Source: Lineus longissimus (Eukaryota; Nemertea; Pilidiophora; Heteronemertea; Lineidae). Taken from it: a DNA stretch of 64,000 nt. The translations under genes were made by a program, and so were the position numbers. The notes beneath the pieces are model-generated. The model was not told where the DNA came from and did no database searches. It was given only the letters and a program-made list of their open reading frames with translations. Of this stretch, positions 21,801 through 60,000 are shown in pieces (within the stretch, counting starts at the first letter, position 1; each line of letters begins with the position of its first letter). The stretch lies in assembly GCF_910592395.1 (NCBI RefSeq), contig NC_088310.1, positions 4,657,501-4,721,500 of the forward strand. The letters run 5' to 3'.

Positions 21801-24800
21801 CAGTTGAGTTATTTCTCCGCCTTGCCATGATCGATTGGATTAATGAATCTTTCTTGGTATAACTGAGGAGATCTCAGATCTCAAATATTTTGCAGAAATG
21901 CACCCCAAGACATTTGAGATGTCTTTTGGAAAAGACACTAGGTGACAAATGAATCTTGGAGATCCTGTCAAACTTGGGGCTGTATGAAATGGTTGGTCTG
22001 AAATGTCATGCAGAACCAAACCAGAGATCTAAGGAACCTTTGGAAACCTGCAGTAACTGAATAGAACACAATGCAAAGATCCCTCGTAGTCGTACTTTTC
22101 ATTGCTTTTAAACCAGTTGCAGTTATCAGTGAGTAGTCTTGACACCTCCCAGGACAACACTGCAGCAGAGCCCACTCTCGCGATCAATCCTTTGACTAAA
22201 AAAACCGCCTCCTTAGATTGCCGTGAAGACAGTATTGATTAGCTCATTGCCACTCACGTCTCTGCTAAAAAAGAATTGAATCCCAACCGGTGCATTATTC
22301 ATAATTCCTCAGATCCTCATGGAACTGAGACGTGCTTCAAGAAAGCTTTTTTCAGAATATACCTTTTCACATTTGTTGTTGTTGTGATAGCTGTCTTCGC
22401 TCAGTTTCTCATGTGATAAAACTTAACTTTGAAGAAAGGATCATTGAGTAGTGTATATCTTGTCTTTTGAGCACAGGTTTGCTTTGATTCTTTGGTCTGT
22501 ATTCTCATTAGACATGTCAGAACAGGATGATCAAATGCTACATCGCCAAATTTTTTTGGCCATCATTACGAGCACATGAGCTTACAAATTAAACCGCTTA
22601 AAGTTAAAAGCTCAATTTCTCAGTTGATTTTGCTGAGAATGCTGTGATGATAAGGAGATGTTTCGCTTTGATAGAAGTGAATCAGTTTTTAAGCTGGTTC
22701 ATTTCTGATTGGAGTAAGTTATCATTGAGAGAGGGATTACAACTCTATTACTATTCAGATACGGAATCAAAATGTCTTGTTTGCTGACTGCTTTTGTTTC
22801 AGCTAAATTGGCTTCGTGCAGACTACTTGAAACTTGTATTGTTTTGAGTACTTTTAATGCATTTTAAATGACTTTCTCATGAAAATGTTAATGAACAGCT
22901 GTTGAAGCACCTGAATGAATTTATGTATCATGTTGCAATTGTTGTGAAGTTTATAATTCATGTGCTCCAGTTTTCATGGAACTCTCCATATGAATCAACA
23001 GGTTGCCAAGTGCGCTGGCAGAAAATCGTGTATAAGTTGACAAGCTCCGCACTAGTTATTGTGAAGCACTAGATATTGTGAAGTATCTTTTTTAATGGTC
23101 CGAGTGGAATACCTGTCATTTGTGATAAGGTATTCTTGGATTTTGACCTGTGTGGAATAGTTTGGGTTAAACCAGTCTGTTCCCAACGGTATAATTTCAG
23201 TTCAGACCCAGTGTTGCCGGTTGGATTTTCGATAGCTGTTGACAGTTGTGTGAGATTTTTGAGTTTTCAGAGTGGATTTTCATTTGAAATCTCAATAAAT
23301 GTGGCAGCTCTGTTGATAAAAGAACATTTGTTGAAGAAATATTCGATAAATTTCGTATGAAATCGGATTTTAATGTGTCCAACTCTGTAGACCAAGTTAG
23401 GATACAAATCTGTGGACGTTACTTGTTGATGATACGTTGTGGCAAGTGGACACTGAACAATATGCCTTTGGGGAAAGTTCCTGGTTGGATATTTGCATCA
23501 TATTTCCCTTCTAAAAGGTAAGCTTCTCATCTTGATCAGTTGAAGGTTAGCATCCATCTGATTGCTGACCAGCATCGAAAATCTTTAAGGAAGCCAATGT
23601 AATGATTCAGCCTGGAGAACATCCATCTAACCTGTGCATCATTCAACTTTCGGCAAGTTTCTGACCTGTGGCTTTTGATATCATTCCTCTCCGTTAAGAA
23701 AATAATTCCACCAATCAGACTCGGTTGATGGTCTGTCAGGCTCTTCTTGTGGGGTTTCATTTGTTTCTATCTGTGTGATGCCCCAGAAGAGGTGACTGAA
23801 TAACATGACCCATCGTGCTGAGCAAAAGACCCTGAAACTCAGGATGTCAACAAGTATATTAGCAGTAATTACCTGCATGCCACTGACCAATGTCACCTCA
23901 GGTGAACTACGACACCCCAAGCTAATGTAATGGGACTTTTAATGTCACAGATGAGCAGATGTTGTCATGAAGATTTGCCAGACGACAGTGTCTGGCAATT
24001 GACAGTTACGTATGTACGAATATTTCCGGGTGCTGGGTAAACAGCTGTCATTAGTCAATTGGCGCCTTTAGCTGGAGTTTGAACCGATCATTTCGTTCCG
24101 TAAGTTACTGTTCTTCCCTTGTGCGATCACACATGAAGTGCAGTTCAATTGTTCAAGGAAGGATGTACCATTCGGATAGGACATGCATTGATTTTGAACT
24201 GTTGATGTCAAAGCACTCTTGTCCTGTTTGTCTGTCATTGTTTGGACTTTCATTTGGTGGGAAGAAGTTTCCTTGAACCCTTCTTGAAAAGAACATTCTT
24301 GGAAAGATTGGAATGAAGATCAAATAGGTTACCCTAAGCAGCATTCTTACTTGGAGGATTTTTGAGTGTTGTTGAATCTGAAGTTCATTTGGCATGGCGA
24401 TGAGTGGTTCTGAAGAGGCACTAAAGGCAGTCGTCCTGGCCCAGTACAGGTCTTGATGAGGGGTGGGGCTGTGTTGACAAGTCAGTCTGATATGATGTTA
24501 GTAACTGTGGTGCCTGCATGCATGGTTAACTTGATTGATTAACATTGGGTGTCGTGGCTGCTGAATTCTGAATTTGCAGTATTCACTGTCTTGGCTGTGA
24601 AACATCTGTATCATGCCAATCATATTGATTATCGCATCCTTGTTAGATTCGTGGCCCAGTCTTTATCTTTGATATGAACTGTTGATTTATGAAATTTTGA
24701 AAAATATAGATATGAGGTGAGCATATTCAGGTCTATATAGGCTGTTTCCAATTAAAGATTCCAATTTTTCTTGTTTTCTTCGCACTTTTGTTAGTGTTTG

Positions 24801-27800: not shown

Positions 27801-30800
27801 AATTTCAAAGAGATTTCAATTCAACCAAATTAGGTCAGTATTGGTTGGCCTGGGAGTTTGAAATAGTTATTCTTGATTTTCTAAAACTGTCCGCTATTGT
27901 CCTGGGTTCTTGAGTGTCTATTCCCAGTCCAAATTCATTCCAACACAACTTTGACAAAATCAGCTGTTTACTCCCTACAAAAGTGGTCATAAAATTAACA
28001 ATAAATCATGCAAATTTCAAGGGATTTGATGATGAAAGACGAATATATTGTTCCGCACTTGAGCGCTTTTGAGCCCACAGTCATCCCTATTCATTAAATG
28101 ATAATTTATCAGTTGTTTTTCGTATCTGTTCGTGGCTGCTGTATACTCGTGCATGTGCACATGGTGTGATCAGTAGATCTGGGTCAGGCTTACATGTTTA
28201 CCTGCCTTTAAACACAAGGGCTCTTAAAAATCAGCTGCTCGGGGTCTAGGACGGAGTGTTCTGAGAGAGAGCTCGTGTATTTGCGTATATGAAGCAACAG
28301 GATTCGCTACTCTGTTAGTTCTGGTCGCAATATTGCGTGTATAGGATAACGTTGTGTCGACATTCTCTACACCCTAGTCATGGCTGCGATGATGGGATAC
28401 GCACCCGTATTTAAGTCATTCACACGGGATTCACATAGAGAGAGTGAAAACAAATCGGAGGATGGGGATGGAGAGAAATCACCACGGTATGTTCTGTGTC
28501 TCTGTTTTACCTTGGATTTTTGCTTTGTCGAGGTACATCATTTGTTCAGGAATTCCATTATGTCTGTAACAACTCCACGTTATAGGCCTTCCTGGATCTT
28601 GTTGTGACAGTGCTGATGGTGTCCCCATATGCTTTTAATTGCTGGGGTCATGACCTAATTGCAGGTGTACAATGTAGCAATTTAAATGTGTCCCAGATTT
28701 TGGCAGTTCTGAGTCAGTCGATGTATTTTGGTGGCTGCCATGATTGCTGGTATTCAGGTCACTAGATCTGTATTTGGGAGGTTTTAGTAGAGGCACTCTC
28801 TTCTCTTGGACTTGGGTTCACTCTTCTCTCAAGGAAGAGGTGAAGTTTATTATCTATCGTAGAGTGCTTCAGGATGGTTTCTCAAGTATCTCCTATCTCC
28901 ACACCCTTCAGATCATCATCACTCAACTTACGTGTGACTGGTCAGAGAGCACACTGTTACATTGGGTGGGGCTCAGTGATCTTTTCTACTGGGTGTCCTA
29001 TCAGTCACAAAATAGACACACGCCTATATATATGAGGCAGTATTTTCATCCACAATGGTTGAATGAGTATGGTAGAACTGCATGACGCTGTATGAAACAA
29101 GCGTATTGATTCGTTCTCGCTTGAACTCATATTCGCATCGTCATCATGCATTGAGTCAAGTCCAGTTTGATGTGTATGAGAAAAATCATGCATATGTTCT
29201 ATAATATTGGGTCCCATTAGAATTCTTTTGTAAATTCATGTGTAGAAAAGTGTAGATAACCTATCTCCCCCCAAACTGTTCATTCAACAAGCAGCATACA
29301 TTGAACACAGGAAAGAAATAGAGGATATCATATCATATTTATGATATACCTGGATGCCCTCAAGTTGTTCATCAATAACTTGAAAAACAATATGTTTTCG
29401 CACTATTTTGAGTTCATCAATGAACTAGTCCGAATTTACGTCACTGGAAATAATTGATCTATGATACTGCTGAGGAAAGAATTTTAGAATGCTAAAGCAG
29501 AAAGTTTATACATGGGGCAGGATGTTATGAAATCTGGCTTAGGATGTTATAAAATTTTTGAGAGTGTGATAACGAAGAGACATCCAGAAGTGTTCGTATT
29601 ATGAAAAAAAGATTCTCACAAATGAATTGACTGACAAATTGTGCTAGTGAAAAACAAAGACCATGACCAAGCTTAACGTAGCTGATGTACTGAATGGTTA
29701 TGATAATTTTTCTCAGAAACTCAATCGATATTGTAGTCAATAACATGATCGAAATCATGAGGAAAGACATGACATGGGCAAGAATGAATTAGGCTGACAC
29801 CGGGGAGGTACATGGGTCAATATTACCAGAAGCCGTGATGCAGAGATTAGCCGATCAGATTGATGGATGACACAAATGGTCCGTAGAGCTATTCGGGTCA
29901 GCTAGCTATGTAATGATCACCTGGTGAAGTAAAGATGATGGCACACGAATTGTTTCAGTACATGTGACCCATCACTGCCAAAGGAGGCACATATTGCACA
30001 GAAGACGAGCCTAAAATCAGGTGATAATGGAAGAAATTGATGTACTCTGAATTCAAAACCAGACAGACAACAGTGAAATGAACAACCAGTCCATCTCAAC
30101 CTGCCAATCTCAAAATGACATGCACCTGGTTTTGATGTGATGGTCAGAACATGGCGTATAGTTTCATCATCTGATACTGGTAGTGGTACTTTGATCTGGC
30201 ACCCAATTGCAGTTTCAATTTCCTTTTCTTTTCTAGTAAAGCCTGATTAAAGCTTACGGTAAGCCGGTATAAAAGATGTCATTGATGTATCTCCTCTTTC
30301 TCTCATTTCAGGGGATTTAAGAGATCACATTCAATGAGAATGGAAAAATTTAAGAGGACTTTCAGTTTTCGAAAGAAAAAGGATCACGTACCAGAATGTA
30401 GTAAACCTCACCAGTGGCAGGAAGACGAAAAGAAAGTTCGAGAGGGCACATGTAGTTTCCAAGTTAGGGTAGGTAGAATGATTTGTTAATCTAAGGCATT
30501 TTGCCATTTATCATACTTTCGTGGTCGTTTTCATGAAAATGAACTTTGAAATTTAAATTTAAATCCCAAGAAATAATTCAGTTGTCTATATTGCTTGCCA
30601 ATCCTGCCATCAATGTCTTTGTTTAGGTTAAAGCTGATTAGAAGCTGAAATGAATGTTACATTCACCGATGTACCAAAAAAAAAGTTTAGCCAATCAAAT
30701 TTTCAATCCCATTGGTATGACATATCTGCGATCTGACAATTCCAGTTGACTTGTTTGGTGTTCAGGGAGAATAAATTGAACCACTAGCTCTAAGTGACTA

Positions 30801-33800
30801 TTTCCTTTATTGAAACACTTTAGTCTGGCATAAGCTTGCTCATTCACTTCATTGAAATATTGGAGTGAAATATGAAATGATTGGGATTTAAGTTTGTCGT
30901 CATGTTTGAAAGAGGTTAGTGCAAGCATACTCTGGTCCATCGTCTACCAGGATAGAACCTGGTGAGGTTATTGTCACCCATAACTGGCATATTCAGTTTG
31001 ATGAACCAGTGTGCACCACCAAGTGGTGAAATTTGTAACTACTTGATCCACTTTGCCTTCCTCTGTATGTCTCATCCAGTTCATTTTCACCAGTCTTGTC
31101 AACTTACCTGTAATCTTGTGATTGAAAGAGCTTCATCTTCTCATACGCCACAGATTCTGACTGATCTCCTGCGTTTTGTGTCTTCTACGCTTTGTGAGTG
31201 ACTTTCTGACAAGTGCAACCAGTTTCACTAATTGTTCTGTGATTACATGTCAACCACACATGGACAAGAGCTTTTGTTGCAGTGACAAAGTCTTTGGGTC
31301 CAAGATGAAAGATAGCTCGTGCCAATCATAACCACTGCTCCCCAAATCAACTCGGTGGATGAATCTTAGATGCATTTATGCAAATACCCGTAAACCAGTC
31401 CCATTAACTGCTGATATACGAGCTGGTTGGCTCCGTCTGCATGTAAAATATATCAACGCAGTTGTATTTGCTTCCCATGTTTTCACATCCAGTATTGTGC
31501 AAGACGCGTAATAGAATGCTTTATCGATTGCTGTCCTTATACATCCTAACACTATGCAATAAACATAAACAGTACATAGCTATGCTAATGACTGTCAGGA
31601 GTGTAGTTATTTTTTTATATTCTCTTAAAAAGCCCCTTCCGGTCATTGGGGTGAACGAACTGGCGCTGATATTACCATGGAAACTATGAAAGAAGTGTTT
31701 GCGTCTTTGCTTCCAGTTGGGGTGGTAGTTTTACCAACATTGATGGCATGGATTATAGTCGTTCTGTCACTAACAAACGACTGTTCATCAGCAACAATGT
31801 GTCAAAAAACATAACATGTCGCATTGTGAGTTGATGCTAAATTGAACTTTCAATTCATTGGCAATGACATTTATATCAAGTCTAGTGTCAAGTTTAGATT
31901 AATCTACACTTGGTGGTGTGAAGGAAATTGCCCTTCACATCACTCGAAAGTGAAATTGCGTCTTAATGTCAATGTTGGTTGACAGCAAATTTACTCAAAT
32001 GTTGCCCATCATAGATCTTTCTTGCAACTCTACACCTGTATTTTGGGTATGGGGATGTCAACTACTCAATCTCAGATACTGTAGAAGACAGCCTCAAGTA
32101 ACAAACTCCCTGCACAGAAAAATTGGGTGGAATCCTCAAATATCTCACAGGAATCGCTACAAGATACAAAAATAGATGTAATCAATGGACGAGTGCTGTG
32201 TTCGTCATTAGATTTAGCTCAAGTGAAGTCTGTCCATTCATAGCATGTATTGATCCGGTATTAGCTGTCTGACAATGTACACTTGATGTATGGGTGACAT
32301 TTACTCAATGTGCCAACGAGTTGATTCGAATGTTGGAAAATATTGACCAGATTTTAAAGGAGGTAATTCAGATACTTGGCCAGATTAGGTACTTGATTTT
32401 CACGTGATATCCATTGCTGCATTCATAGCAGTAGCATATGTATTGATCCCAAATCAGCTGTCTGACAATGTACGTGTGATGTATTGGTGACATCTACTAA
32501 ATATGAATACGAATTGTCAAATTGATTCAAACACTGAGGACACTAACACAATCTCATTGATTAGGTGATGTTCTGGGAGATTTACTAACCCTGTTTGATA
32601 ATTTTGAAACATTCCTGTCATTAACGTTTTTGTAGACTGCGTAAGTTGATGAAGTGAATGTGATCCCTACACCGCATCGGTTTCCTTTGGTTTTCATTGA
32701 ATTCTTTATCAGCCTGTGGAGACAATAAACCAGCTCACAGAGATGGCGTGCCACTGTCCAATTCATCTTCACTATCCAATTTATCTTCACTTATACTAGC
32801 TAACTTGTGGCTCCACGTCCCAAAAGGCACAATTTAATCATCCAAAGGATAAGGAGAATTTTATGCCTTATTCATCAACTCTTCTTGGCTCCTGTTTACT
32901 AATACAACGTTGGATCAAGTTTTTCTCAATCTTTGTGTGATGTTGACTCTGCATCTTTCAAGGGAGCAATCGTCAGAAACTAGAGAGCCGTGTTTCCATT
33001 AATGGGTTTTCCTTGCTGTTGGTCTCCTCGGAACGATTGACATGTAAGACTTGATGTGTAGGCAACTTCATACCATCAAAAAGTGGCCTTAACAATTGTG
33101 TATTTTTCTCATTGCAGTACCTAGGATGTATAGAAGTTTTCGAGTCGCGGGGTATGCAGGTCTGTGAGGAAGCAGTAAAAGCATTAAAACAGGTAAGAAG
33201 TTTCCCTTGACCACTCAAAATGATCAACCAAGTGCCCTCCAGGTAACAGGCTTTGCTGTTGGTTACTTCCGTTAGGTTTCTGATGTCTGTCCATTTGCTG
33301 AGTGGTAGAAGCATGCAATCATCTGAAAATAATGCATCTTGCACCTTGGAGCAGATCTCGTAGTGCTGGATGTCAAACTGTTCATGAGCATTTCTTAACA
33401 CGGTCTCGCACTTCACCAGCGCAAAGCACCACGGGCTTAAAATTCCCTTCCATGGCATCAAGTATGCTTGGAACTACTTTTGGTTGTACTTTCAAAAATA
33501 GCTTGAAATGAAGGAGATAAGTGAGTCCCAGGAAAGTAACAAACATTGAAAGTTTCCATGCTTCGCTGATCGGATGGCTTGGCCAGGTAGATGCTGATGT
33601 TCTGTTAACTGTATCTCATGGGAATGGAACAATGACGATCAATCAAGTTTGATTGCATGGGTTGCCTCGGAGTGAAAACATTGTGAAGTGTATAAAAATT
33701 GCGGTGTTTATAGAAAAGGTGTTGCGCAGCCTAGCCATTGGGAGTGATATGTATCCAGATATTTTTCTAGAGAAACGAAGGACAGGGCCGGTAAGAAGAT

Positions 33801-36800
33801 GGGAGTGATCCATCACTCCCCTGGTCCAACTTAACTTCATATACAAGTGAATTACATCAATCCCTACGCTTCAGTGAGATTAAACTCCACTGGAGTGAAT
33901 TGATAGCTGTGTACATCTCCTGATGAGCTCTGCAAGGCGCGCATGGTCATAGCATGCTACACTTGGCCACATGAGGCCATGATAATCATTCTGCGTTGAA
34001 GCCATTTGGCTTTGCTGGATTGGGTCATGCAACTGAGATAAACATCAGATATTCCGCACCACATTTGACGTTCCCTTGACGTTTCTATGATTCCTAATGC
34101 CGCAAGTTAATGAGGCATAATCCTTTCTGATTGGTGTTCATGGTCGGTCGGCATGGACATATTGTCCAGCTTGTCGATTCCGGTACATATTACTTGTTGG
34201 AATATGTCAGAGTGGATTTCGCTCAAAAGGGAACGTGTATTATATGGGTGCAGTATGGCTTTATGGCTTCTAAATGATATTTAGATGGGCTTGGTTACTT
34301 TTGTGATTGGTGAAAGGTGATATTTGTCGCTGGTTTTCAGTGTTAGGCTTCTTCACTGCCAACTAAAGAGGAAGTGCATGTCAAGCAATTTTGTACATTG
34401 ACTACTAGTTGGCGGCATTGATTGCTGTACCAAATTATCATTTCCATGACGCTGGAATCTATACCAGAAATTTGCTTCCCAGTTGACCGTCTCCATTGGA
34501 AAGGACTGCACTCAGTGAAAGTAGATGGGATTAATTCCGAACTGGTACAGCATTGAGGGGATCTTACTTCATAGTAACCACCACTATCTTGAGTATGAGC
34601 CTGTACCCTTGCTGTCAGTGGGGAAATCTTGCCTCCATCTTGCAGTGATGATGTTCATGCATGCAAAGCCTTGCATGTCTCGGTGTAATCACTGACATGC
34701 CTAATTGGATGAGCGACTAATTTGGCTCATAATTTGTTGAAAATGAGATCTTCAGATCCAATGGGAATCTAAATATTGAGAAGAAATTGCTGGCTTCGGT
34801 TCCACACTGAAGCCAGTAATGAGTATTAGAGCTCTCTTGCAAGTTGCATATTCAGAAGTAACATTGAATTTCTAATGAAGTTCAAATGGCGATAACCATC
34901 CCCATGGTCCTCTTGACTCAAAAGATGTAGCTCTCTCCTAAACAGTACTGCAAGTGAAACCAACATCAGCACCATTTGAGTCCTACAGATGTAGTCATTG
35001 TGGGTTCCTAATTGCCTCCCCAAGAACTAATTAAAAAGCAATCTGTTCTGAAGTGCAACTGGAAGACCAAGTTTTCAACCGTATTGAGCTCAGATGGATG
35101 GCTTCAATAATTTTTCATGCTGTATCATTAAGTTGATTTGTTTAGAGCCCACCAACCCAGACAATTTCATGCATGTACAATGTATGATACTGACTGAAAG
35201 AAGGAGAGACGAAGTGTTGTATAAGTGATGTGCCGAAAAGATTGCCCAGTGAATTTCTTTTGACAGCCTGCAGTGCTTCAAAATTCTAAATGGGTTGGTG
35301 GAATTTCCATCGCATACTATTTTAGTTGACGTGTACGTGCCAGTATACCTATGTTTTTGCTAATAATTTATTTTAAATTTAACTCTTTCAATGTTTTTCA
35401 GCAATGTAAAGGAAAATATCAGCGAGCAGTATTATACGTGTCTGGCGATGCCCTCCGTGTTGTAGATGAGATTAGTAAGGTGAGTTCATGTCAGGTGGCG
35501 CCACTGGAGAAGAGTAAATTTGACGTCTGCTGCTGCACAGTGTCTTGGAGAGTTAGTCGTCATCTGCATGGCTGCATTGTTGTTCATCCCAATAGATTTG
35601 TAGCTTCCTGCATGTCAGGTAGTGGATTAACCCTTTTGCTGTGGGAGGCTTTATATCAGACTGGCAGTTCCGATAAAAAAAGATGTAACAAAATTAGTAG
35701 AAAATGCTATTTGCAAAAGGGTTAGCCTTCTTAGCAGTATTATAGTCAGTAAACCTGTTTTGTTTGGAATGATAAGCTCCACATTTAGTAGGTAGTGAAC
35801 TTGCATAATATCTCTTAGCATTTGTTTGTACCCCAAATCATGATGCTTTATTTTGACATCTTGCATTTGAATTCTGCAGAATTTCAAGAATATTGCTCTT
35901 GAATTATACTCAATGGTGACGCTGGGTTTCAAGTGATGGGTTTCCATGCAGAAATCCCAACAAAAATACAACTTATTCGATTAATTGGTAGGAGATAGTT
36001 GATGTTTGTCAGATATTCTAGCAATTGTCACATGACAAATGGGGACAGAAAGGAAATGAGTTTCTGTGGGAATCAATCTTAAGTGCACTTGTTCAAAAGT
36101 TGGTACAAAAAATATTTGGTGAAAATTTGAAATTTAAAGAATTCTGTTACAGTCTGCCCAAAGAAGATTAAGCCCTCTAGTAAGATTATCTGCCGAAATA
36201 GGCACTCTGTGCAATTACCTTCGTCACTTTTTGAGTTTATTTCATTTTATTGCTGTAATTTCATTTTTGCAACAACTGTGAAGAAATAGTCATGCTATTT
36301 TGCAAATTAAAAAGATCTTGGTGAAGTTCTTACTAGCTTGTGGTGGTCATTCACTGCTAAACTAACGCTATGCTATCGCAGTGCTGCGCCTTCCATAATG
36401 TTTTTTCATCCATAATTGTAACATTATATGCAGAATAAATAATATTGCAGCTACTGTATCATTACACCGCTAGTGCCAATGGCTATTCTATTCAACCTAT
36501 CCCAGACTAAGTCCTGGAGGATTTTCACTGGCCTCAAGGGTAAAAAACATAATGATTACCAAGCTTAGAACTGCAACAATTTGGGTCCAAATATGGCTCT
36601 TTATGTATCCCTTGAGCATGTCAAAACAAAACGTCTAGTTGCTTTATATGGAACAACCCAGCCAAAAGCTGGGAGCACCAATTCTGATATTTTTGTCATG
36701 TTACGATAAAACCTTTTAGATGGGGACAAATGCAACATCTCGGTTCGAATGAAAAAAAAAGAACAGTGTCGAGCTCATGTAATCTTTTCGAACGGTAAAA

Positions 36801-39800
36801 AATACCATCTGCAGAATGGCATGAATATTTTTTGTTGAGCATGGCGTGATGTGTCGTTGCCTCCACAGTTGTGCCTCTCTCATTCTGTCGTTTCGTGGCG
36901 CTTCAAGTACTTGCTGTATTATATTCAGGTGAAGGATACCAAGGGCATAAACTCCAATAAGGTATGATCTTTGCTGCCGCACCTTGGAACTGTTGCTTGC
37001 CTTGCACAAAATGACACTGTACATGTGAAATATCTTGGGGTATGGGGATCAAGGGACCTTGGGTTTGAATGTACCTGGATTGACCCTCGGGGGACTGATG
37101 GTATCCTACTGACTGTCCAGAGGTAACGGTTAAGTTCAAGGTACATGACATGGAACCTATTTGGGGATTGGGTGATACGAACTAATGGATAAGCAAACAT
37201 ATCTTTGATGTCAGTTCTTGACGTTAGTTATCCATCAGTCTTTGGTGCCTTAAGAAAGAATTACTTGTACCCAACTGCTTGCTGGCTATATGACCAAGTT
37301 TCAGTTTGGATAAAAGGAAGTGCAGCTCATGGCAACACATTTGAAGATGGTGCCACTTCATCATTAGTATCCCTGCATCACCATCTGTAACTATAGTTGA
37401 CCCAGCTTTCGCATATTTCATTCAACACCAATGAGTATATAGCTATTGAAAATCATCTTCAAAATGTGAAACTCTTCGTAAACGTTCATGAAAATTGTTG
37501 TAAACATATCTTTGTACAATTGACATCTGTTTTACTTCTCAAGTGACTAAACCCTTCCCTTCATTTCCACCCTTCCCTGTTGTAGACCATCTCTCTTATT
37601 CCTCTAACCACCATCATGTTCAGAAATAACATCGCTTGCTGCCTCCGCAATCACGTAACACTAAATTCTCAAACCATATCTGTTATCCAGTTCATGTTAC
37701 TTTTGCCCCCCACTGTCCATCCTCTTACTTGGCTCACTTCTTCATGTGTGTTCATTGATTTTGTCCCAGAGTCAGAAAGAACAAGTGTGGTTTAATAGGA
37801 GTGGTAGCTTTAGTCGGCTTATTGACAGTTGATGGTATGACAATCAAGTGATATTTTTTACTGCGTCAAAGCAGGAAGTGGTGACAATACTCTTAACCCC
37901 CCCCCCCCCATAAGATAGCTGTAGCATTTGGTGAGAATGTATTCTCCAGCAATGTTGCTGTATTGGATATGGTTAACCTGTTTAGTACATCTTACCCTAG
38001 TAAGCCCAGTTTCCACTTAATAATAGGCAGTTTATGGCCAAGAGCAGACAATTCATATTGCAAAATAGCTAGCTAATTCCTATAAGAGTGCTGGGTTATC
38101 TTGTTGTAACAGAGGAAAAACATCAAGGTCCAACCTAGCCTGGGCTTGTAGGAATGATGCCACCACTACATTGTGAAGGCACTGTCTGTTGTTGAAGGTA
38201 CTCATGTTGTTGTTTGAAATAATGAAAAGAGTTCTATTATCACATTGCAATAGAGTTAAATGTCCACATCTGAAATGGCTGCTGATACATGGAGTGAACT
38301 TGGCTTTGATGTTGTCGATAATGCAGTAATTATTATGCCTTTGAAAGCAACAATTTGAGAAATATGTCGTGGTAATCACTCCATTGTCATAATCATTGCG
38401 TGGGCTTGAGGAATTATGCGGCAATGGCTCTCCCACCGGCACTTTGAAGTTGGCATTCTTAAGAAAATGTGCAATTATTAAACAGAATATATCACCAATA
38501 TAAAAGGTCCACCTTTATAAAAGTCCTCTGTGTTATATCTTATCATTGCCCACATGACATTCACGGTGTCATGTCCAAATGTTGTGATGTTTACCATTCA
38601 CAGCCGCCTCATTTGCATGATGTACACTCGGATTCCCGGAACTACATTAATTATTCGAATCAATAAAAAAATTAAACAGAATCTCTTTAGAAATATTGAT
38701 GATTCTAGATTTGAAACAAAAGAGTTGTGGATTATAATTTCTTGTCGCTCTGTTGGGAGTTTGTGTTATTGCGGGAAAAAGCTCTATTGATTTTGTGTAG
38801 TTTACATAAAGCGCTGTTTTGTACAAATCCATGTCTAAAGAATTGATTTTACAGGCAAATAAACTGCCTGTTTAAGTGTTTTTATATGGATTCCCTCGTT
38901 GTCAGTAAACGAGGAAGCTAGCTGGCAGAGAAGGTTCTTGGAGAACTTCAGAAAAGTGGTGGCTGGGTCTTGTGGGCACAAAAACGCACGGAAGCCTGTA
39001 ACTGCTGGCTGAACGCTGCTTCTTTCCCAGCACCACTTTGATCAGTATCCGAGCCCTGTTGGTTCCTTTTAGCTGGTATTCTATTTCCAATACTGATCGT
39101 GTTTCACGCATGATTACAGGAGAACAAGCCGGTGTTGTGAACCGCAGGGGATTCAATTCACGCTGGTTCCTATATGCTTTTTAGTGGTGCTTCTTTCTGG
39201 TGTTCTAATCTTAGACAACATCTGATTGGTGTATTGGAGAGCCCATTATCATTAGTAGCATGGTGCCATCAGCAAAGCGCCTCCTAAATGCTGTGCATTT
39301 TAACTGCTTTTACCCCAGATCCTAGATTTGCACGCAAATAATTTCCGCTTGTTTGTCTCTTTGGGACACATTTTCATAAATATAGTCTCTTCTTGTATCC
39401 TTCCTTTCCATGCAGTTCTGTTCATTGTTATGTTTATACACCCTTAATATGAAGATCCGTACTGTCCCTTTCCAGTATGAGGTGGGGGTGAACTTGTATA
39501 GATTGTATATGATGGTTTGTTTAGACTCTTGAAGCATGTATCCTTCTTGTAAGCTAAGCTGAGGATGACTGTTTGATTCCCATTAGAACAGTAGGCACTA
39601 CATCTCTCCCAGAACATCCTTCTATAATACCATCCAGCCGTTGCTTGCAATTTGCTTACTCTTTCAGGGATTAATTGTTGATCAGACCATAGAAAAGGTG
39701 TCGTTTTGTGCCCCGGACAGGAGCCACGAAAAAGGATTTGCGTATATTTGCCGTGATGGCACGACGCGACGTTGGATGTGCCACGGTTTCCTGGCGATAC

Positions 39801-42800
39801 GTGAAACAGTAAGTTGCCTTTCATCGTTTAATCATTTCATATTCCAACTTTTCAGGGTTTAATAGTGGATCAAACGATCGAGAAAGTATCGTTCTGTGCG
39901 CCGGATCGCAGCCACGAGAAAGGCTTTGCGTATATTTGTCGCGACGGCACAACCAGACGGTGGATGTGTCATGGTTTTTTGGCACTTAAAGAGTCCGTAA
40001 GTGTTAGTATTGAACTCTTTAAATCTCCTAGAGATGTTGTACCAATAAATGTCGTAACGCACACTCACATCTAGACAACATGACGGGTTCGTAAGTATTA
40101 AAACTGTAACAAATAACACACAATAGCATATCAAGTAGCATATAGATGAAGTGTGGTGTAAAGAAATCGAAGGGGAAACCTAATGTAAGCACCAACCTAA
40201 CAAATGTAACAAAAAGCTATCTAATAACTCACTGTAACTTTTAACAGCTGGATACTGTAATAATCTGTGGAACACCCGTGCTGCCCCATTATGGTAGTTT
40301 GTATATTAGTATTGCGGCCGGTTTCTATGATGGCGCACCCCTTCGTGTGGTGAGACAGAGCGTGACCAGAGTTACCCAAATATTGTTGATCAATCTCTTT
40401 GTGTTTACTCTGTAAACAAGAAGCCTGCCTCATACCTACAAATCACACCTCTCTGTAACAACTGGTGAAGATGAGGTTGTTTTCTGTAGCTCTTCCTATG
40501 GTAGATAACCCTTAGATGTGGTTATCTGGTTTCAGTAGTTTGCCTACGAAAATGAAAAGCAGATGAACTAACTAATCTTAGACGCTATGGTTCTGACAAG
40601 TTACAGCTCACATCCTTGATGCATGTGTGAAAATCAATATGATAGTGTGATGACTAATTTGATAGCCTTCAACTTGAGATGTCTGATTTCAAGATCTCCA
40701 TGGTGTACTGGAATCAAAAGAGAGATGTGTCAGGCTTAAGAAATATGGAAGCCATCTCGTTCTATCACGCTGTGTAGTTGGAGTTTTTCAATTATTGATA
40801 CCAGGACTTTGTTTCAAATGGACTGTCAGATACCATTGGGAAGAAACTCTGGATACAGCCAAGAAAGACAGCATGGTCGCAGGGTTCAAGTCCAAGTGTT
40901 GGGCCACCAAGTTTAAGGTTGCAACATTCAAGGACAGACTCATTTGCTCTGTGTGAGCTTACCTAATTTGTCACCGATGTAGATTGCTTCATAGCGTGTT
41001 GTCTATATTTGAGCTGAGGACACATTGTTGCCAAGTCTTGTTAGCGGTGTCATTTGATTGACATACCAATTATCTCGTCGATAGCTTGGTCTCAGCCGCG
41101 TAATCTCCGTATGGTGATTTTCCCACCTTGTTTTGCAATATTCGTGGCAACCGTTATGTGGTGGTCGCGAGGGATCCATTTCAAGTGGTTTCAAATTCAA
41201 ATGGATCACAAGGCTGGAAGTCCCGTTAGTAACCCCTGGTGAATGTAATGTACATTGACGTAAACCAAACATAATGAAGTCTTACCAGTCGTTCATTCTC
41301 CAAAGCCCATTAACATAGTCTAAAATTGATCCTGAATGTGATGTGAGCACTTGAGTTCTATGGACGTGTTGGACCTACCATGAGCGTTGCTGACCGGCCC
41401 ATCTTGCCTCATTGATCATATCCTGTGGCCACCCACACGATTGCTTAGCAATTATGATAAAGGAGTAGATTTGTGATGATTTATTGGAGGCCGTAAGCCA
41501 TGTCCCCTGGGTGTCATATTTTCCAAGAATACAGGGCATGAATCTTCTGCACAGGAGTAACTGTTTCCAGTGTATCAGGTGGTTTCGTCAAGACCAACAG
41601 GTGTTGCTAGCATCTAACTTCGGCTCATTATATAATGCCAGGGTTGCAACTAGCTACAGCTTATCGCAAATAAGGAAAGTATGAAATTCTTCAGTCTGAG
41701 TAGTAGGATTTTCAATCGACATTCCTTGCTGACTGGAGTATTTCACGGCCTGAGAATGAGTAACGATTTCTGCTCATGTTTTTTGCTGCTGTCTCATGCA
41801 GTGATTGATTGATGTGGGCAATTAATCCTCGAGGTGACAGACAGTAGATATTATGATGGCCCAGAGGAACTGCTGCAGTCACTCATCTCATTGACTGATA
41901 CCTTTTAGTCTTTTGCATCAGTTAGCAGTAATTGCTATTCTAATCAGCATCATCATCATCATCATCACCATTGTTGTCTTTGTCAACATCGTAGCACATC
42001 CTGAACTTGGTCCTTTTCACTTGGTTGCTACCACATATAAGACCCATCAGAGACTTGGTCCTCTATCGCTATAACTTAAGATAATGCTATCACTGTAACA
42101 TTCACCGAACCATACAATGTCTTTGCACTTGTAGCCCCTGTGTATAGCCTGTCCCTCTGTCAGTAGTTGATATTTTAGTCCAATGTCTTGTCAGTTTCTC
42201 TTTCATTGCCATTACAGCCAGGTATCCTTTTCTCCCAACACTACAAAAACTTTGTAGTTGGGCCTGTTCACCAAGGTTTTCAAACATTTCATCAGAAATG
42301 AGAAAACTTACATCTTTGATAGTTTTGTTTTATTCTCTTCTTTAACTTGTTTCAGTTAGCCAGAATTGGCCAGACTTTTGTTTGGGTAAGGTTCCGGCAT
42401 CTATCCTTGGATAGGGGTTACATTGTCGTGAATGTCTAGTTACAGGATACCCTCACGGAGTATATAGGAATGTTCACTCACTGTTTTAAAACTAGCATCC
42501 AAATTCACAATTGTATAATCAGAGCACTTTGTGAGAGTACATGTCATTTTAGAATCTTCACTTTAAATTTGTCAGTGAGATCATGTATTGTTAGCTTTTT
42601 GATTTAACTCACAAATCTGTTCTTATTCTTGCTGCACGTAAGCTTCTTATAACTTTGGTTAGGATCAAATGTGATAATGACAACATCTAAGCCATCGGCT
42701 TGCAGTTTTTGACAGCAAAATATGACGTTATGTCAGTGCAATAGTTCTACTTTATTACATCATATTTGTGGCATCGCAAGAACTCTTAAGCTGTGTTGCA

Positions 42801-45800: not shown

Positions 45801-48590
45801 TAATCATACTTTTCTTGCCATTTCCAGGGTGAGCGCCTGAGCCATGCAGTGGGCTGTGCTTTTGCCATTTGTCTTGAACGTAAACAGAAGAGAGATAAGG
45901 AATCGGGCGTGACGGTCACATACAGTGAGGATAGGACAAGTTTCACAAGGACAGGATCATTCCGACAAGCATCCATCACAGAGCGGCTGCAGGATCCACA
46001 GAGCGCCCTCGTAGCAGGTATTCAAAGTTAGCACAATTTTACATTTCGGGGAAAGAGTGCAGTTGTAGCAGAGTTAGTTTGGTTTTGCCTGGCTATTAAC
46101 GGCAATGGTTCAAAAATGGGGCAATGGTGTGATAGTAGATGATGGTACTGTTAATCAGGAAGATCAAATTGCATCATGACGTCCATTCTGAACCATCAGA
46201 GTTACTTGGTTCGTTACCTCTCCTCATTTGTGTAACAGACTCCGGGATGGCGGAATGGATCCAAAGCTTGAGGGCAATATGCATGATGTCATGTTCTGAA
46301 AAGATTTTGGGTAAAGACAACTTTCATCCACTGCTGGCTTCACGAGGGTAGGAAGCTGAGAGGTCTTCTGGTTGTGACATTATCAGGAAGTATTGGTGGA
46401 TTTCATCTGAGATGTTCTCAAAGGCATGTTCAAATATATCTTTATCAAATTACTCTGTAAAACTTGTACGTGTATTGAAAGATTTTTGTTTTGTAGGCCT
46501 GCCTTGAAACGTACCATCTTATTTCAGATCCTGTTCCACAGAGTCGACAAGAGAACCCGTTTGCGGTGGAAAGGCCGCACGCCACCCCCAACATGTTAGA
46601 ACGCATGGGCTCGTTCCGTGGTTTCTCTAAACTAAACGAGTCTTCATCACCGTTCAAAAGACAGTTATCTCTACGTGTTAATGAACTACCATCAACGATT
46701 CAGCGACAGCAAAATATGGGCTACACGAATGAAGGAGATTCGTTACATCATACCAACGGTCCAGGTTTGTCCGGTTTGTGCATGTCTACGTCATCATTTC
46801 CATCTGTCGTAGCATAGCCTTTCCTCTACTTCTTGGTTTGAAGAGTTTGATCACGGAATAAAAAAAGTCAGGATTCTTTTGGAAGAGTGAAACCTGAAAA
46901 GGCATTCAATTTGAGAAAGGCACTTACCATTGCCAGCTGTGGAATTTCAAATACAGTCTAGCAAGGGCGATGAAATGGATAGTTCTGATATGTTTTGTGA
47001 TCAAACTCTTTTCATGTTTTCTTGGGGGGGGGGGGGGAACAAGCATCATTGTCACATGTAACATCTTTCATCTTTATTGCTACATCTCTGGAAGATTTGA
47101 CATTGACCAAAAGATCTGTTGGCTGTATTTTGAGTTAGCTTTTGTTGTTTCAGTTCGGGGGAGGGGTGGGGAGGTGCATGTGCAAAGTATTGTGCTGTAA
47201 ATACTGGTTGATGCATGACAAAACCATGTCTTCAAGTGTGTTTTACTTGTTCTGTTGAAAAGAATCTGTTTTACATCTCATCCTTTCGAGATGACAGTGA
47301 CCAAAGACGACACCAGAAGAAAACGAGTTGCCCTACTTGAGTTAGATTTTCTGCGTAACTTATCGACATGTCTTTGGAGATTAAGGATGTTCGCACCAAT
47401 CCTATGCCCTGGGCCCAGTTGGTCAAGCCAAGCTTTGTCTCAAACACTGGTGTCAACTTAACTTGGCAAGTCTTAAGGGCTTAACTGAAGGAGTCAACGC
47501 CAAGTAAAGTTAATACCAGCGTTAGTGACAAAATTTGCTTTGAACAACTAGGCCATGGTTCTTTTTTATCATGACACGTTTTTAACACCGTCTGTCTTTG
47601 CCTTACAGCCAGTCCAATTGCGGAAGCGTCTCCGACGAAGGAAAATCAAGACTCAATAGCCGAGATGTGTGCTCAGTTATCATCAGGTCTTTCGGCGCTC
47701 TCTGGTGACGATCCTTTCAATCAAGTTCAAGCGAAAGGTCAAGTGAATATGAACCATGGCATGGGACCCGTGCCGGGAGCCACTCCACAAAGTAAGTTGG
47801 CCTATGGAGACATTGAAGATGATTTGAACTCTCCAATTGATGAGTGTGGCTGTTGTTAAGCCATCTGTAGACATGCGTACTGGCTGGTTTGAAGAGTCTA
47901 ACTTGCCAAATTCGAGTCTCAAACTGACTTCAATGATGCCTTGCAGAGATAATCTCTTTCAGCCAAGCTTATGCCTTGGTATCACAAGAGATGCAACAGA
48001 ATTTTAGCTTCAGAACATTGGTATCCATGGTTGAAAAGTTAACAGAATTTCATTGCTGTTAGTGTTTGCAATAATAGCGTTTGTTCTGATTTACAGGCGT
48101 TGGAGCGGCAGGCCAGCCTAACCCTTGGGGGAGCCCCAAGCAGCCAAACACAGCAGACTTCTGGCTTAACTCTCAAAATGTTGGAGGGAGTGGCGACGTA
48201 TCGATGAATATGAACGTGACTAGGACGCCACCGGCAGCAACGGCTCAAATCCATCACCAACAGCAACCTGTGGCATACAACCAGCCGATGGACGCAGCCG
48301 CTCCCAACAGAGCACCACCACTCAGCCAAACTCGTAGTCATTCCATAGATACTGGTTCAATGCATGCGACCCAGCACGCGCAAAAGGCACCAACACTTAG
48401 GGAAATTTCCGAGCAAAATAAAACGCAGCGAAATTGGCAGAGTATGACGGGTCAGGGACCGGCAGCCACAGATCCTTTTGATGTAGCTTGGGCGGCCAAA
48501 GCGGGCGGGAAGCCTAAACCTGCACCACAGCCTACAAATCCGTTTGCCAACAATTCGCATCCAGTAAAGGCTTTTGAGGTTCAGTTATAA
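12791..48590 (+). CDS. numb: Numb, PTB-domain endocytic adaptor and cell-fate determinant (whole gene, spliced)
   Basis: Numb is a cortical adaptor that antagonises Notch, is inherited asymmetrically at division, and links cargo to clathrin endocytosis through alpha-adaptin and Eps15-type EH proteins. The spliced product is about 536 residues with the first exon at 12791, close to fly Numb. Seen in order: a basic N-terminus with a Ser in [10 protein letters not shown] (aPKC-type site), a PTB domain at about residues 60-200 ([68 protein letters not shown]), the Numb-family motifs [12 protein letters not shown] and [19 protein letters not shown] and NPF motifs, and the C-terminus AFEVQL. All exon phases agree. 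Unusual points are the tandem duplicate PTB exon, three first exons and a cassette exon. Family identity is certain; isoform use is inferred, since no transcript data are available. Confidence 0.97.
19853..19900 (+). CDS. numb: Numb candidate cassette exon (48 nt)
   Basis: An acceptor (TTCTCTTTGCAG) and a donor (AG|GTAAAT) bound 48 nt, exactly 16 codons. Entered in the phase left by exon A it reads [15 protein letters not shown] and leaves the same phase for the common exon. Inclusion adds 16 polar residues between the basic N-terminus and [10 protein letters not shown] without shifting the frame. Only first exon A lies upstream of it, so it should occur only in that isoform. A chance in-phase match is possible; the smooth peptide and good sites favour a real exon. 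Confidence 0.5.
24819..24995 (+). repeat. Interspersed repeat, copy 1
   Basis: Contains CTGTCCTTAATATAGAGGTG then TCCTGATAAGAGAGATCAAA and later AGTGTCCTTAATAGTGAGGG. The copy at 45608-45772 in the opposite orientation shares these blocks in the same order. Copies differ by many substitutions, so they are old. No coding capacity. Confidence 0.7.
25305..25345 (+). CDS. numb: Numb alternative first coding exon B
   Basis: Starts at ATG in GAATATGGC and encodes [13 protein letters not shown] plus CC before donor GTAAGT. It ends in the same phase as exons A and C, so splicing to 30312 gives [20 protein letters not shown]. The peptide is short and carries only two lysines, so it would weaken the basic membrane-targeting tail. 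No clear core promoter was identified upstream. Support is the exact phase match and near-consensus donor. Confidence 0.55.
28380..28486 (+). CDS. numb: Numb alternative first coding exon C
   Basis: Encodes 35 residues beginning [17 protein letters not shown], then a Ser/Glu/Lys-rich stretch ending EKSP plus CG, with donor GTATGT. The phase matches the common exon 1.8 kb downstream. The flanking 130 bases upstream are richer in CpG than most of the intron and contain the palindrome CGCAATATTGCG at 28326-28337, consistent with a separate promoter. The resulting N-terminus is more acidic than that of exon A. Use in transcripts is not shown by sequence alone. Confidence 0.65.
30312..30468 (+). 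CDS. numb: Numb first common exon (basic tail, start of PTB domain)
   Basis: After one base completing the Arg codon left by any first exon, it reads [20 protein letters not shown] and on through KPHQWQEDE to CSFQVR, ending in donor GTAGGT at phase 0. [14 protein letters not shown] aligns with the start of vertebrate Numb (MNKLRQSFRRKK) and with the internal second start of fly Numb. The ATG at 30334 or 30340 could therefore start translation by itself. The Ser in TFSFR is the expected aPKC target that controls membrane release. Confidence 0.95.
32234..32536 (+). repeat. Diverged direct duplication in a Numb intron
   Basis: CATTCATAGCA...TGTATTGATCC...AGCTGTCTGACAATGTAC...GTGACAT recurs at 32234-32335 and 32419-32536, about 200 bases apart, with scattered substitutions and indels. 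It looks like an old local duplication; there is no open frame. Confidence 0.7.
33118..33192 (+). CDS. numb: Numb exon, PTB strand beta1 and helix
   Basis: Twenty-five codons, phase 0 to 0, acceptor ATTGCAG and donor GTAAGA. It reads [19 protein letters not shown] then VKALKQ, nearly the same as fly Numb. The sequence directly after it is where vertebrate Numb has its optional 11-residue PTB insert. A 162-codon open frame lies antisense over this exon and is treated as a shadow. Confidence 0.96.
35402..35479 (+). CDS. numb: Numb exon, middle PTB strands
   Basis: Twenty-six codons, phase 0 to 0, from acceptor TTTTTCAG to donor GTGAGT. It encodes [20 protein letters not shown] then VDEISK, matching the fly segment LLHVSGDGLRVVDDETK. 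It joins cleanly to either copy of the next exon, both of which begin [13 protein letters not shown]. Confidence 0.95.
39668..39808 (+). CDS. numb: Numb duplicated PTB exon, copy 1 (IRET form)
   Basis: Forty-seven codons, phase 0 to 0, acceptor CTTTCAG and donor GTAAGT. It covers [34 protein letters not shown] and ends LAIRET. When joined to GERLSHAV it gives IRET-GERL; the last residue is Thr, as in vertebrate Numb (KDTGERL). The other three residues depart from the usual KD pattern. Copy 2 starts only 47 nt downstream and encodes an identical peptide up to residue 43. The two are probably mutually exclusive. Confidence 0.93.
39856..39996 (+). CDS. numb: Numb duplicated PTB exon, copy 2 (LKES form)
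   Basis: Forty-seven codons with the same phase and length as copy 1, acceptor ACTTTTCAG and donor GTAAGT. Residues 1-43 equal copy 1, but most codons differ silently (about 28 changes). The last four residues are LKES, so the joined product reads LKES-GERL, close to fly Numb (CKDSGERL). Both copies have intact splice sites and no stop, so neither looks like a pseudo-exon. Including both would stay in frame but duplicate part of the PTB fold. Confidence 0.93.
39997..45827 (+). other. numb: Numb intron after the duplicated exon (5.8 kb)
   Basis: No third copy of the duplicated PTB exon was seen. It holds a (CAT)n run, an inverted GATCCATTT pair near 41173-41208, a coding-like stretch at about 42870-42990, and an interspersed repeat at 45608-45772. 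Sequences that select between the two PTB exons could lie here or in the preceding 4.2-kb intron. Confidence 0.6.
45608..45772 (-). repeat. Interspersed repeat, copy 2 (inverted relative to copy 1)
   Basis: On the minus strand it reads GGCTGTCCCTAATAGAAAGG, TGTCCTGATAACCGAGGTCA and TTGTCCTTAATAGAG in the order of copy 1. It begins next to a TACAGTGGAACCTC end and stops 55 bases before a Numb acceptor. Confidence 0.7.
45828..46017 (+). CDS. numb: Numb exon, C-terminal PTB helix and linker
   Basis: Encodes [20 protein letters not shown], the C-terminal PTB helix that packs against the peptide groove, then [19 protein letters not shown] and the conserved [15 protein letters not shown]. It ends at phase 1 with donor GTATTC. 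The RTGSFRQ serine is a basic-context kinase site. An interspersed repeat ends about 55 bases upstream of the acceptor. Confidence 0.96.
46528..46764 (+). CDS. numb: Numb exon with NPF, 14-3-3/aPKC sites
   Basis: Begins at phase 1 (completing Asp) and reads [20 protein letters not shown], then [14 protein letters not shown] and [16 protein letters not shown], followed by a polar stretch ending at donor [14 protein letters not shown] and KRQLSLR correspond to vertebrate Numb Ser276 and Ser295, which aPKC and CaM kinases phosphorylate to bind 14-3-3. The donor is weaker than the others in the gene, which would allow regulated use. Confidence 0.95.
47024..47037. repeat. Homopolymer G run (14)
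   Basis: G14 in a Numb intron. A second G14 lies at 55739-55752 and a C13 at 37897-37909. Such runs often cause assembly or sequencing errors. Confidence 0.9.
47609..47791 (+). CDS. numb: Numb exon, SPIAE segment and DPF motif
   Basis: Begins by completing Ala and reads [15 protein letters not shown], then [20 protein letters not shown] and FNQVQ, ending at phase 1 before GTAAGT. SPIAE-SP and the QLSSGLS segment match fly Numb (SPIAEVSPAK, QELSQGLSLL). DDPF is an alpha-adaptin-ear type motif. If the following intron is retained, the frame continues 21 more codons to a stop after the residues ECGCC. Confidence 0.92.
48097..48590 (+). CDS. numb: Numb last coding exon, DPF/NPF endocytic tail
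   Basis: Completes Ser, then a low-complexity Pro/Gln/Asn-rich tail ([26 protein letters not shown]) and [17 protein letters not shown] followed by TNPFANN. It ends KAFEVQL and TAA. DPF binds the AP-2 alpha-adaptin ear and NPF binds EH domains in the family. The final residues match fly QSFEVQL and human KTFEIEL, fixing the true C-terminus. Confidence 0.96.
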
Positions 48591-57084: not shown

Positions 57085-60000
57085 GTAAGAATCCATTGAT
57101 GAAATGTTATCATAGTCAGTCACCTTGACTCCCCCTCCACCCCCAAGTAACCCCTTGGGAGGGGGGTACATGTTTTACATTGACTGTTGCCTTTATCTTT
57201 CATTCAGTTTCATGTGTGTCGGTGTAAGTTAAAATGTTGTAAAGAAAGATTGATTTGGTTTTCAGGGGAGATTGCTATTCGTGTGTTTCGAGCATGTACA
57301 GAGATGAACATCAGGACAGTTGCCATCTATTCTGAACAGGACATGATGCAGATGCACAGACAGAAAGCTGATGAATCATACCTGATAGGCAAGGGTCTGC
57401 CACCGGTCGCAGCTTATCTCAACATACCAGAAATCATAAATATCGCTAAAGTAAGTCTTGGTTTGGTGCTGAGGGGCCACTCATCAAAGGCCTGAAAATG
57501 TGTTGCCCAAGAAGCATTGTCTTAAAAGACAGCAATACTTTCCCTCTGAAGTTGCTAAATGTAGTATTAGACTACATGGATGTGGATGAAGAGGATGTTA
57601 GGTTGAAACTCACAATCAAACATTTTTATCATCTGCAACTAAAAATAAAGATATCTAAATCCTTTCTTTGCAGGAGAATAACATCGATGCCATTCACCCA
57701 GGTTATGGGTTCTTGTCTGAGCGGTCAGACTTTGCCCAGGCGTGCCAGGATGCAGATATCGCATTTGTTGGCCCATCGCCTGAAGTTGTGGCCCGGATGG
57801 GAGACAAGGTTGAGGCCAGGATAGCTGCTATTGAAGCTGGTGTCCAGGTTGTGCCGGGAACGCCAGGCCCAGTCCATGAGGCCTCTGAAGCTGTGGATTT
57901 CTGTCAACAGTATGGTCTTCCAGTTATGTTGAAAGCGGCCTATGGTGGCGGGGGGCGTGGAATGAGGGTGGTGAGAGAAATAGAAGATGTGGAACAACAG
58001 TTTAATCTGGCATCTTCAGAGGCTTTAGCGGCTTTCGGCAATGGTTCCATGTTTATTGAGAAGTTTATCGAGCGCCCCAGACATATTGAGGTGCAGATTC
58101 TTGGTAAGTTAGGATTTGAAACACGCCAGACTTTGATATCATCATTTGCTGTAGGTTTTAAAACATAGTATTTTGATTCTTCTTTCAAACCTGGTATATG
58201 CCCTATGCAGGAATATAGACACAAAAAGAAGCTTGTTTTAGCTGAGAACTAATGAAATTGTGCATGGAAAATAACCTGTCTCCTCAAAATATTCTTGGCT
58301 TAACTTTTTACGGTCTAGGTGCAGCAATTTCTTTTTGTCTCCAGGTGATTCCAAGGGCAATGTCATCCATCTGTACGAGCGTGATTGCTCCGTTCAAAGA
58401 CGTCACCAAAAACTTGTTGAGATCGCACCTGCACCGATGCTGCCTCCCGGCATCCAGGAAAAGCTTACTGCAGATGCTGTAAGACTGGCCAAACATGTCG
58501 GTTACAAGAACGCTGGCACGGTTGAATTCTTGTTGGACGAACATGGCAATTATTACTTCATCGAGGTGAATGCGAGGTTGCAGGTGGAACACACGGTCAC
58601 TGAGGAAGTCACAGGGTAAGTGCTACGATATGTAGAGAAAAAATCTAACTGTTGTTGAGTGCCAACTTGATTGCCTGACTATTTCCGCCAGTTATTTATT
58701 CATCAGGTTGGTCTTTGTCATATTCAATCAATGCCTTCTTTCAGTGTTGATCTGGTACAGGCACAGGTCCGTATCGCCGAAGGTAAAACTTTGGAAGAGT
58801 TGCACTTGAATCAAGAAGACGTTGGTCTGCAGGGGTGTGCCATCCAATGCCGTATTACCACTGAGGATCCATCTCTCAATTTCCAGCCAGATACCGGCAG
58901 AATTGAGGTAGGTGATTTATTCCCCATTCACAAGTTTTTAGATCACCTTATGCCAAGTTCTCTAAGATTTTCCAGAATCAATTAACTCCTATCGTTGGCA
59001 CTTTTGTATGACACCTATGTAATCAGATCAATAATCCTCACTGTTCCTCTTCACCAGGTGTTCCGTAGTGGAGAAGGCATGGGTATCCGTATTGACAGTG
59101 CCTCGGCCTTCGCTGGTGCTAGTATATCACCATATTACGACTCTCTCCTCGTCAAGATTATCGCCCATGCCCGGAATCACAAGCACGCCTGCTCTAAAAT
59201 GTTGAGGGCATTGAAAGAGTTCAGGATTAGGGGAGTCAAGGTAAGAGATCTCCAACTTGATAATTTAAGGCATAATCCACCGAGAGATGGCTTTCAACAC
59301 GTTTTATAGCACCAACCCACGAGGTTATCATGTCACCAAAACCTCTGTGGTCAAAACCAGGGTACTACACAATTCATTATAAATATGAAACATTGTAACT
59401 AAGGTGTTCTAGAATGTTTATCAGAACAAAAGCCCCTCTTCCTTATAGACCAATGTGCCATTCCTCCTCAATGTTGTCGAACATGACAAGATTCGCTCCG
59501 GAATCGTCGATACGTACTTCATAGACGAGAATCCTCAACTATTCAAATTCGCCCCCAGCCTCAACCGAGGTCAGAAGCTGCTGAAGTATTTGGGTGAGAT
59601 TATGGTCAATGGGCCGCTCACACCACTTGGAACTGACCTCAAGCCATCAGAGGCTGTGCCCAAGTGCCCACCTGTACCATTCAGTAAGTATTTGGAGAAT
59701 CCTTTGTAATTTTTACCAGCTTCGTAACCCTTTTGGATTTTTGCAAGGTATGGAGTCCATGATAGGCTCCTGTTCACCTATGTGGGATCTCTTATTTACC
59801 CTGGCATAGACACTCGGGATAAGCCACCACAGCTTTTAGTCTCATCAGGCTGACTCCTGAATACATTGCTGTTGTTGAGTAACAAACAATTTTGTCGCTG
59901 AATTTGCTTTGTAAGGAATCCTTCTTGAGCTATACTAGTTATCCTGCCTCAAAGTGCTTCGAGCTTCACTGAAAATGAAAGTTAAGCCTCTTGCATTGAT

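Follow-up and report, generated by a model that had tools for sequence, protein, structure and literature searches.

Core exon pair in the PTB domain of Lineus Numb

In the nemertean Lineus longissimus, the gene for Numb, a protein that sets cell fate in asymmetric divisions via its PTB domain, carries one exon of that domain twice in close succession. This arrangement raises the question of whether the two copies are alternatives of which each mRNA takes one and, if so, what the choice would change in the protein. We addressed this question in a stretch of 64,000 nucleotides from contig NC_088310.1 (positions 4,657,501–4,721,500 of the forward strand), here called the window and numbered from its first letter. 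Our reading is that the twin copies of exon 4, which lie 47 nt apart, are old and intact and are probably spliced mutually exclusively, through an intron that is predicted to be too short for efficient removal.

Exons 4A (39668–39808) and 4B (39856–39996) lie on the plus strand, are each 141 nt long and are in phase 0 at both ends. Each copy has cag directly upstream and gtaagt directly downstream, and an intron of 47 nt (39809–39855) separates the two. The initial annotation had described two adjacent same-phase exons of 141 nt with intact splice sites, and this was borne out: its exon end points and lengths were exact, as were the neighbouring donor at 35479 and acceptor at 45828. Its further statement that both exons encode the same PTB segment also holds, with 44 of 47 residues (105 of 141 bases) identical and the Pfam PID domain matched by 4A alone and by 4B alone. 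The first 43 residues (GLIVDQ...CHGFLA) are the same in both copies, followed by IRET in 4A or LKES in 4B, and the three differences are all conservative (Ile/Leu, Arg/Lys and Thr/Ser). When the 391-Mb genome (391,118,348 bases in 30 contigs) was searched in six frames with the 4A peptide, matches appeared at the 4A and 4B sites and nowhere else.

Gene model and the public isoform X4

The coding exons of Numb span 23357–48590 on the plus strand. Among full-length homologues the best was P0121, protein numb-like isoform X4 of Lineus longissimus, from a cluster of 16 member sequences on one contig. When ten exons of the window are joined and 4B is ended at 40002, the translation equals X4 letter for letter over 590 residues. 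The initial annotation was right about both the gene and the tandem duplication. We identify the product as Numb by PF00640 (PID) and PF06311 (NumbF), both above cut-off, and by DPF and NPF motifs in the translation.

All ten exons are on the plus strand. The first coding exon of X4, placed by the rebuild, lies at 23357–23517 and is followed by exon 1 (30312–30468, with an internal ATG at 30340), by exons 2 (33118–33192) and 3 (35402–35479) of the PTB domain and by microexon 3b (36929–36961), which adds 11 residues to the PTB domain and is included in X4. Downstream of 4B are exon 5 (45828–46026), which encodes the C-terminal helix of the PTB domain, exon 6 (46528–46773) with the NumbF domain, exon 7 (47609–47791) and exon 8 with the stop codon (48097–48590). 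In exons 5 and 6, X4 uses 9-nt extensions (46018–46026 and 46765–46773), and shorter ends at 46017 and 46764 are possible by sequence. X4, the sole Lineus isoform read of the 16 cluster members, contains 4B without 4A. The microexon and a second 4B donor at 40002 were absent from the initial annotation, and X4 uses both.

Protein consequence of the exon pair

The 4B donors stand in tandem, 6 nt apart (gtaagt|gttagt). Use of the downstream donor, gttagt, extends 4B by 6 nt (39997–40002), and X4 carries this extension as Val-Ser after LKES. Exon 4A continues as gtaagttg, without GT at +6, and a Val-Ser donor is unusable there.

The same junction varies in other species. Extra residues between exons 4 and 5 were present in 28 of 120 Numbs among the matches listed; within these 28, again among the matches listed, Val-Ser stood alone in 10 and longer inserts, many of them aromatic and basic, were found in 18. 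Named carriers of junction inserts besides Lineus are molluscs. Some open reading frames read through into the intron: 14 of 31 with one particular 14-residue form continue as Val-Ser-Val, equivalent to GT at +6, as do 6 of 88 with other forms. These comparisons show that, in spiralian Numb, the junction between exons 4 and 5 is a place where splicing, as predicted from the sequences, repeatedly alters one PTB loop. Between 4B and exon 5 of Lineus, no mollusc-like aromatic/basic microexon was found with either strict or relaxed criteria.

Inserts at the exon 4/5 junction of molluscan and other Numbs measure 6 to 22 residues and are often aromatic/basic, as in WYFKGRNRRS, VSRFFKGRHRNRRS and IARFFRLKTQG; the carriers are P0128, P0134, P0135, P0146–P0149, P0153–P0158 and P0161–P0163. 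We take these inserts to be similar in composition to that of vertebrate exon 3 but to occupy another loop of the PTB domain. Three other spiralian Numbs, P0151, P0164 (from the annelid Paralvinella) and P0166, have a long basic insert between exons 2 and 3, presumably the site of the vertebrate exon 3 insert.

In an AF2 model of X4 (40 sequences; mean pLDDT 56 over 590 residues and 64–88 in blocks from 161 to 240), exon 4 covers residues 169–215 and forms strands at 170–181, 191–198 and 204–211, followed by a loop to 217 and a helix at 218–242. The modelled PTB domain is closest to solved Numb PTB chains, including that of the Drosophila Numb–Pon peptide complex, and we assume that the ligand groove lies between the first exon 4 strand and the C-terminal helix. 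All differing residues (212, 213 and 215) fall in the loop that leads into this helix. Both proteins would fold into the same PTB domain and recognise peptides of one kind, and would differ in the strand–helix loop (IRET versus LKES) and in the Val-Ser option, available to 4B only. The initial annotation spoke of two Numb PTB isoforms, which is formally right, but the isoforms differ by just three conservative residues.

What this difference does is the functional half of our account. The 4B Val-Ser site is in the same strand–helix loop to which molluscan Numbs add aromatic/basic inserts. Tentatively, and with the odds against it, the duplication may have divided a single exon with a tandem donor into two specialised ones, 4A giving an insert-free loop and 4B a Val-Ser-capable one; switching between them would then adjust the PTB domain of Numb, and with it cell-fate decisions, in a nemertean. 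A rival to this functional half only, which has a substantial although minority chance of being right, is that the copies are used exclusively while their proteins are interchangeable, the pair being retained by drift or to regulate amount, and the difference in the loop having no effect. In its favour, the differences are three in 47 residues and conservative, and the exons of other species also vary here, with Ile, Leu and Val at the first differing site and either Arg or Lys at the next. Less easily accommodated are the clustering of the three differences within the final four residues, next to the junction at which 28 of the 120 listed Numbs carry inserts, and the unequal donors, which differ in the Val-Ser option.

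Age of the duplication and selection on both copies

Thirty-one codons differ between 4A and 4B, 28 of them silently and 3 by replacement. When 36 random changes were introduced into 4A in 5,000 simulated sets, the number of residue changes averaged 23 and never fell below 14, compared with the 3 observed. By the Nei–Gojobori method the silent proportion was 1.0 (beyond correction) and dN was 0.05. Among the 44 codons that specify the same residue in both copies, 28 differ, where fully randomised silent choice would give 25.0–27.4, and the introns flanking 4A and 4B agree at just 12 of 40 positions on either side. These last two comparisons rule out a duplicate that stems from assembly or from haplotypes. 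Because silent change is saturated while 44 of 47 residues are kept, the duplication is, on the evidence of the codons, old, and selection has maintained both copies.

Exon position 19 is Ser in 4A and 4B alike. This residue is found in 13 of 291 other proteins with a readable exon among the matches listed, and the Numb of a second nemertean, Tubulanus (P0122), lacks it. This gives a faint hint that the duplication may postdate the divergence of Lineus and Tubulanus, or that 4A and 4B may have evolved in concert. No second species with the exon pair was found among the homologous proteins listed, and no exon ending in LAIRET was seen elsewhere in 329 homologous proteins among the matches listed. 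These 329 are the distinct proteins from lists of 120 each, out of 573, 3,928 and 223 matches. The 4B ending (Lys, Ser) and donor are the commoner spiralian form. Since 4B keeps the tandem donor seen elsewhere and 4A cannot use it, it seems to be 4A that changed, with 4B the older form.

A rival view is that 4A is silent or nearly so, with only 4B spliced and 4A a relic kept by chance or for a role in DNA or RNA. It would agree with 4B being the copy in X4, the sole Lineus isoform read, and with the divergence of 4A from the commoner spiralian ending and donor. An unused exon, however, should have lost codons, splice sites and residues, and 4A has all 47 codons open, both splice sites kept and 44 of 47 residues retained at saturated silent sites, which makes a silent 4A unlikely. 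From this selection we infer that 4A is used in mRNA.

Likely exclusive use of the two copies

If both copies are used, exon 3 or microexon 3b would join either 4A or 4B, exon 3 also serving as the upstream partner of 3b, and each copy would then join exon 5. Joint inclusion and double skipping alike keep the reading frame; because joint inclusion does so, exclusion must come from splicing itself. Within the 47-nt intron, the best branch-point-like site is TTAAT; its A, at 39831, lies 22 nt downstream of the 4A donor and 25 nt upstream of 4B. This position is a prediction, guessed from a loose motif. Joining of 4A to 4B would be blocked with donor and branch point ~22 nt apart, and if the intron were retained, the reading frame would meet a stop 17 codons beyond 4A.

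By local and genomic standards the intron is short. Elsewhere between exons 1 and 8, Numb has 8 introns, all of at least 305 nt, compared with 47 nt here, and four introns of the next gene, with ends placed by eye, measure 223, 241, 129 and 150 nt. Plus-strand exons downstream of Numb (window 57184–59240 and on) we take, reading by eye, to be pyruvate carboxylase. Myosin genes of the same genome supplied 37 approximate introns of ~113 nt or more, with 0 of 37 under 100 nt, in a sample that comprises only neighbouring matches abutting in the profile and may miss introns. Two pairs of myosin-head matches resemble duplicated exons in their own right: C1:18539747–18540169 and C1:18540244–18540519, with overlapping profile ranges (295–435 and 288–379), and C1:1809808–1809903 and C1:1811021–1811119 (profile 121–152 and 120–152).

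Two candidate switches were also considered. The fold of 39640–40030 was no better than that of shuffled sequences (z 0.65; 72 of 100 shuffles folded equally well or better), which gives no support to RNA pairing. In 2.5 kb around the pair, UGCAUG, GCAUG, ACUAAC and ACUAAU, which we take to be splicing-factor motifs, occurred 2, 6, 1 and 2 times against 1.8, 3.7, 0.35 and 1.0 expected from the window, with no clear excess.

In the available text of a study of OGDH, a distance of less than ~50 nt between donor and branch point is described as a steric barrier (PMC7969005). Human introns of 43, 49 and 56 nt do get spliced, according to the accessible part of another report (PMC4463651), and this counts against steric exclusion at 47 nt. 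Among the matches listed, none of the 329 distinct homologues contains the exon twice, and 322 of the 329 show its core motif. Joint inclusion of 4A and 4B, which would duplicate the three-strand block within the PTB domain, would keep the frame (141 nt being a multiple of three) and could draw on the spliceability of 43- to 56-nt human introns (PMC4463651, as far as its available text goes), but is highly improbable given that none of the 329 listed homologues has two copies and X4 has one, that the 47-nt intron is an outlier for the genome and that strands 170–181, 191–198 and 204–211 would repeat inside one compact fold. Mutually exclusive use of 4A and 4B, which the initial annotation had proposed as probable, is likely on indirect grounds, judged from the 47-nt intron, the lack of both copies in any of the 329 homologues and the stop that intron retention would bring.

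Relation to known exon pairs and to Numb splicing

An early precedent for exclusion of this kind is alpha-tropomyosin, in which, as Smith and Nadal-Ginard are said to have found in 1989, two exons are mutually exclusive because of an unusual branch point location; in Lineus Numb, by comparison, the whole intron measures 47 nt. Vertebrate OGDH exons 4a and 4b offer a similar case, as described in the accessible text, in that the duplication is ancient and exclusion is achieved by a branch point near the upstream donor, an arrangement that is predicted in Lineus (PMC7969005). According to the same text, the OGDH mechanism was mapped experimentally and one copy holds a calcium-binding motif, whereas in Lineus the mechanism is predicted and the copies differ by three conservative changes (PMC7969005). 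Exons Ab and 3 of vertebrate U2AF1 are likewise tandemly duplicated and mutually exclusive and, like the Numb pair, lie inside a conserved domain and yield isoforms of one essential-type protein, as far as the available portion of that study describes them (PMC5224494). There, trans factors regulate the exclusion and nonsense-mediated decay lowers double inclusion, whereas double inclusion in Lineus keeps the frame (PMC5224494, same portion).

Alternative splicing inside the Numb PTB domain also has a precedent in NUMB exon 3, which the accessible text presents as an 11-residue cassette reported in chordates (PMC6778778). Lineus differs in swapping a core exon of 47 residues, and its microexon and Val-Ser donor are at sites other than that of the NUMB exon 3 insert as given in that text. 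The survey behind that report covered 31 proteomes, including Lottia and Capitella and no nemertean, and its main text does not use the term 'mutually exclusive' (PMC6778778). Among the matches listed in a search of open-access titles and the starts of abstracts, with subscription papers outside its scope, none reported that a PTB exon of Numb is duplicated or used in a mutually exclusive way. The exon pair is of a known kind and, for Numb, apparently new.

If exclusive use of 4A and 4B is true, a whole core PTB exon is swapped by splicing, which would be a new way to vary the PTB domain of Numb. The pair also provides a clean case in which to ask why exons with near-identical products are kept adjacent until their silent sites saturate.
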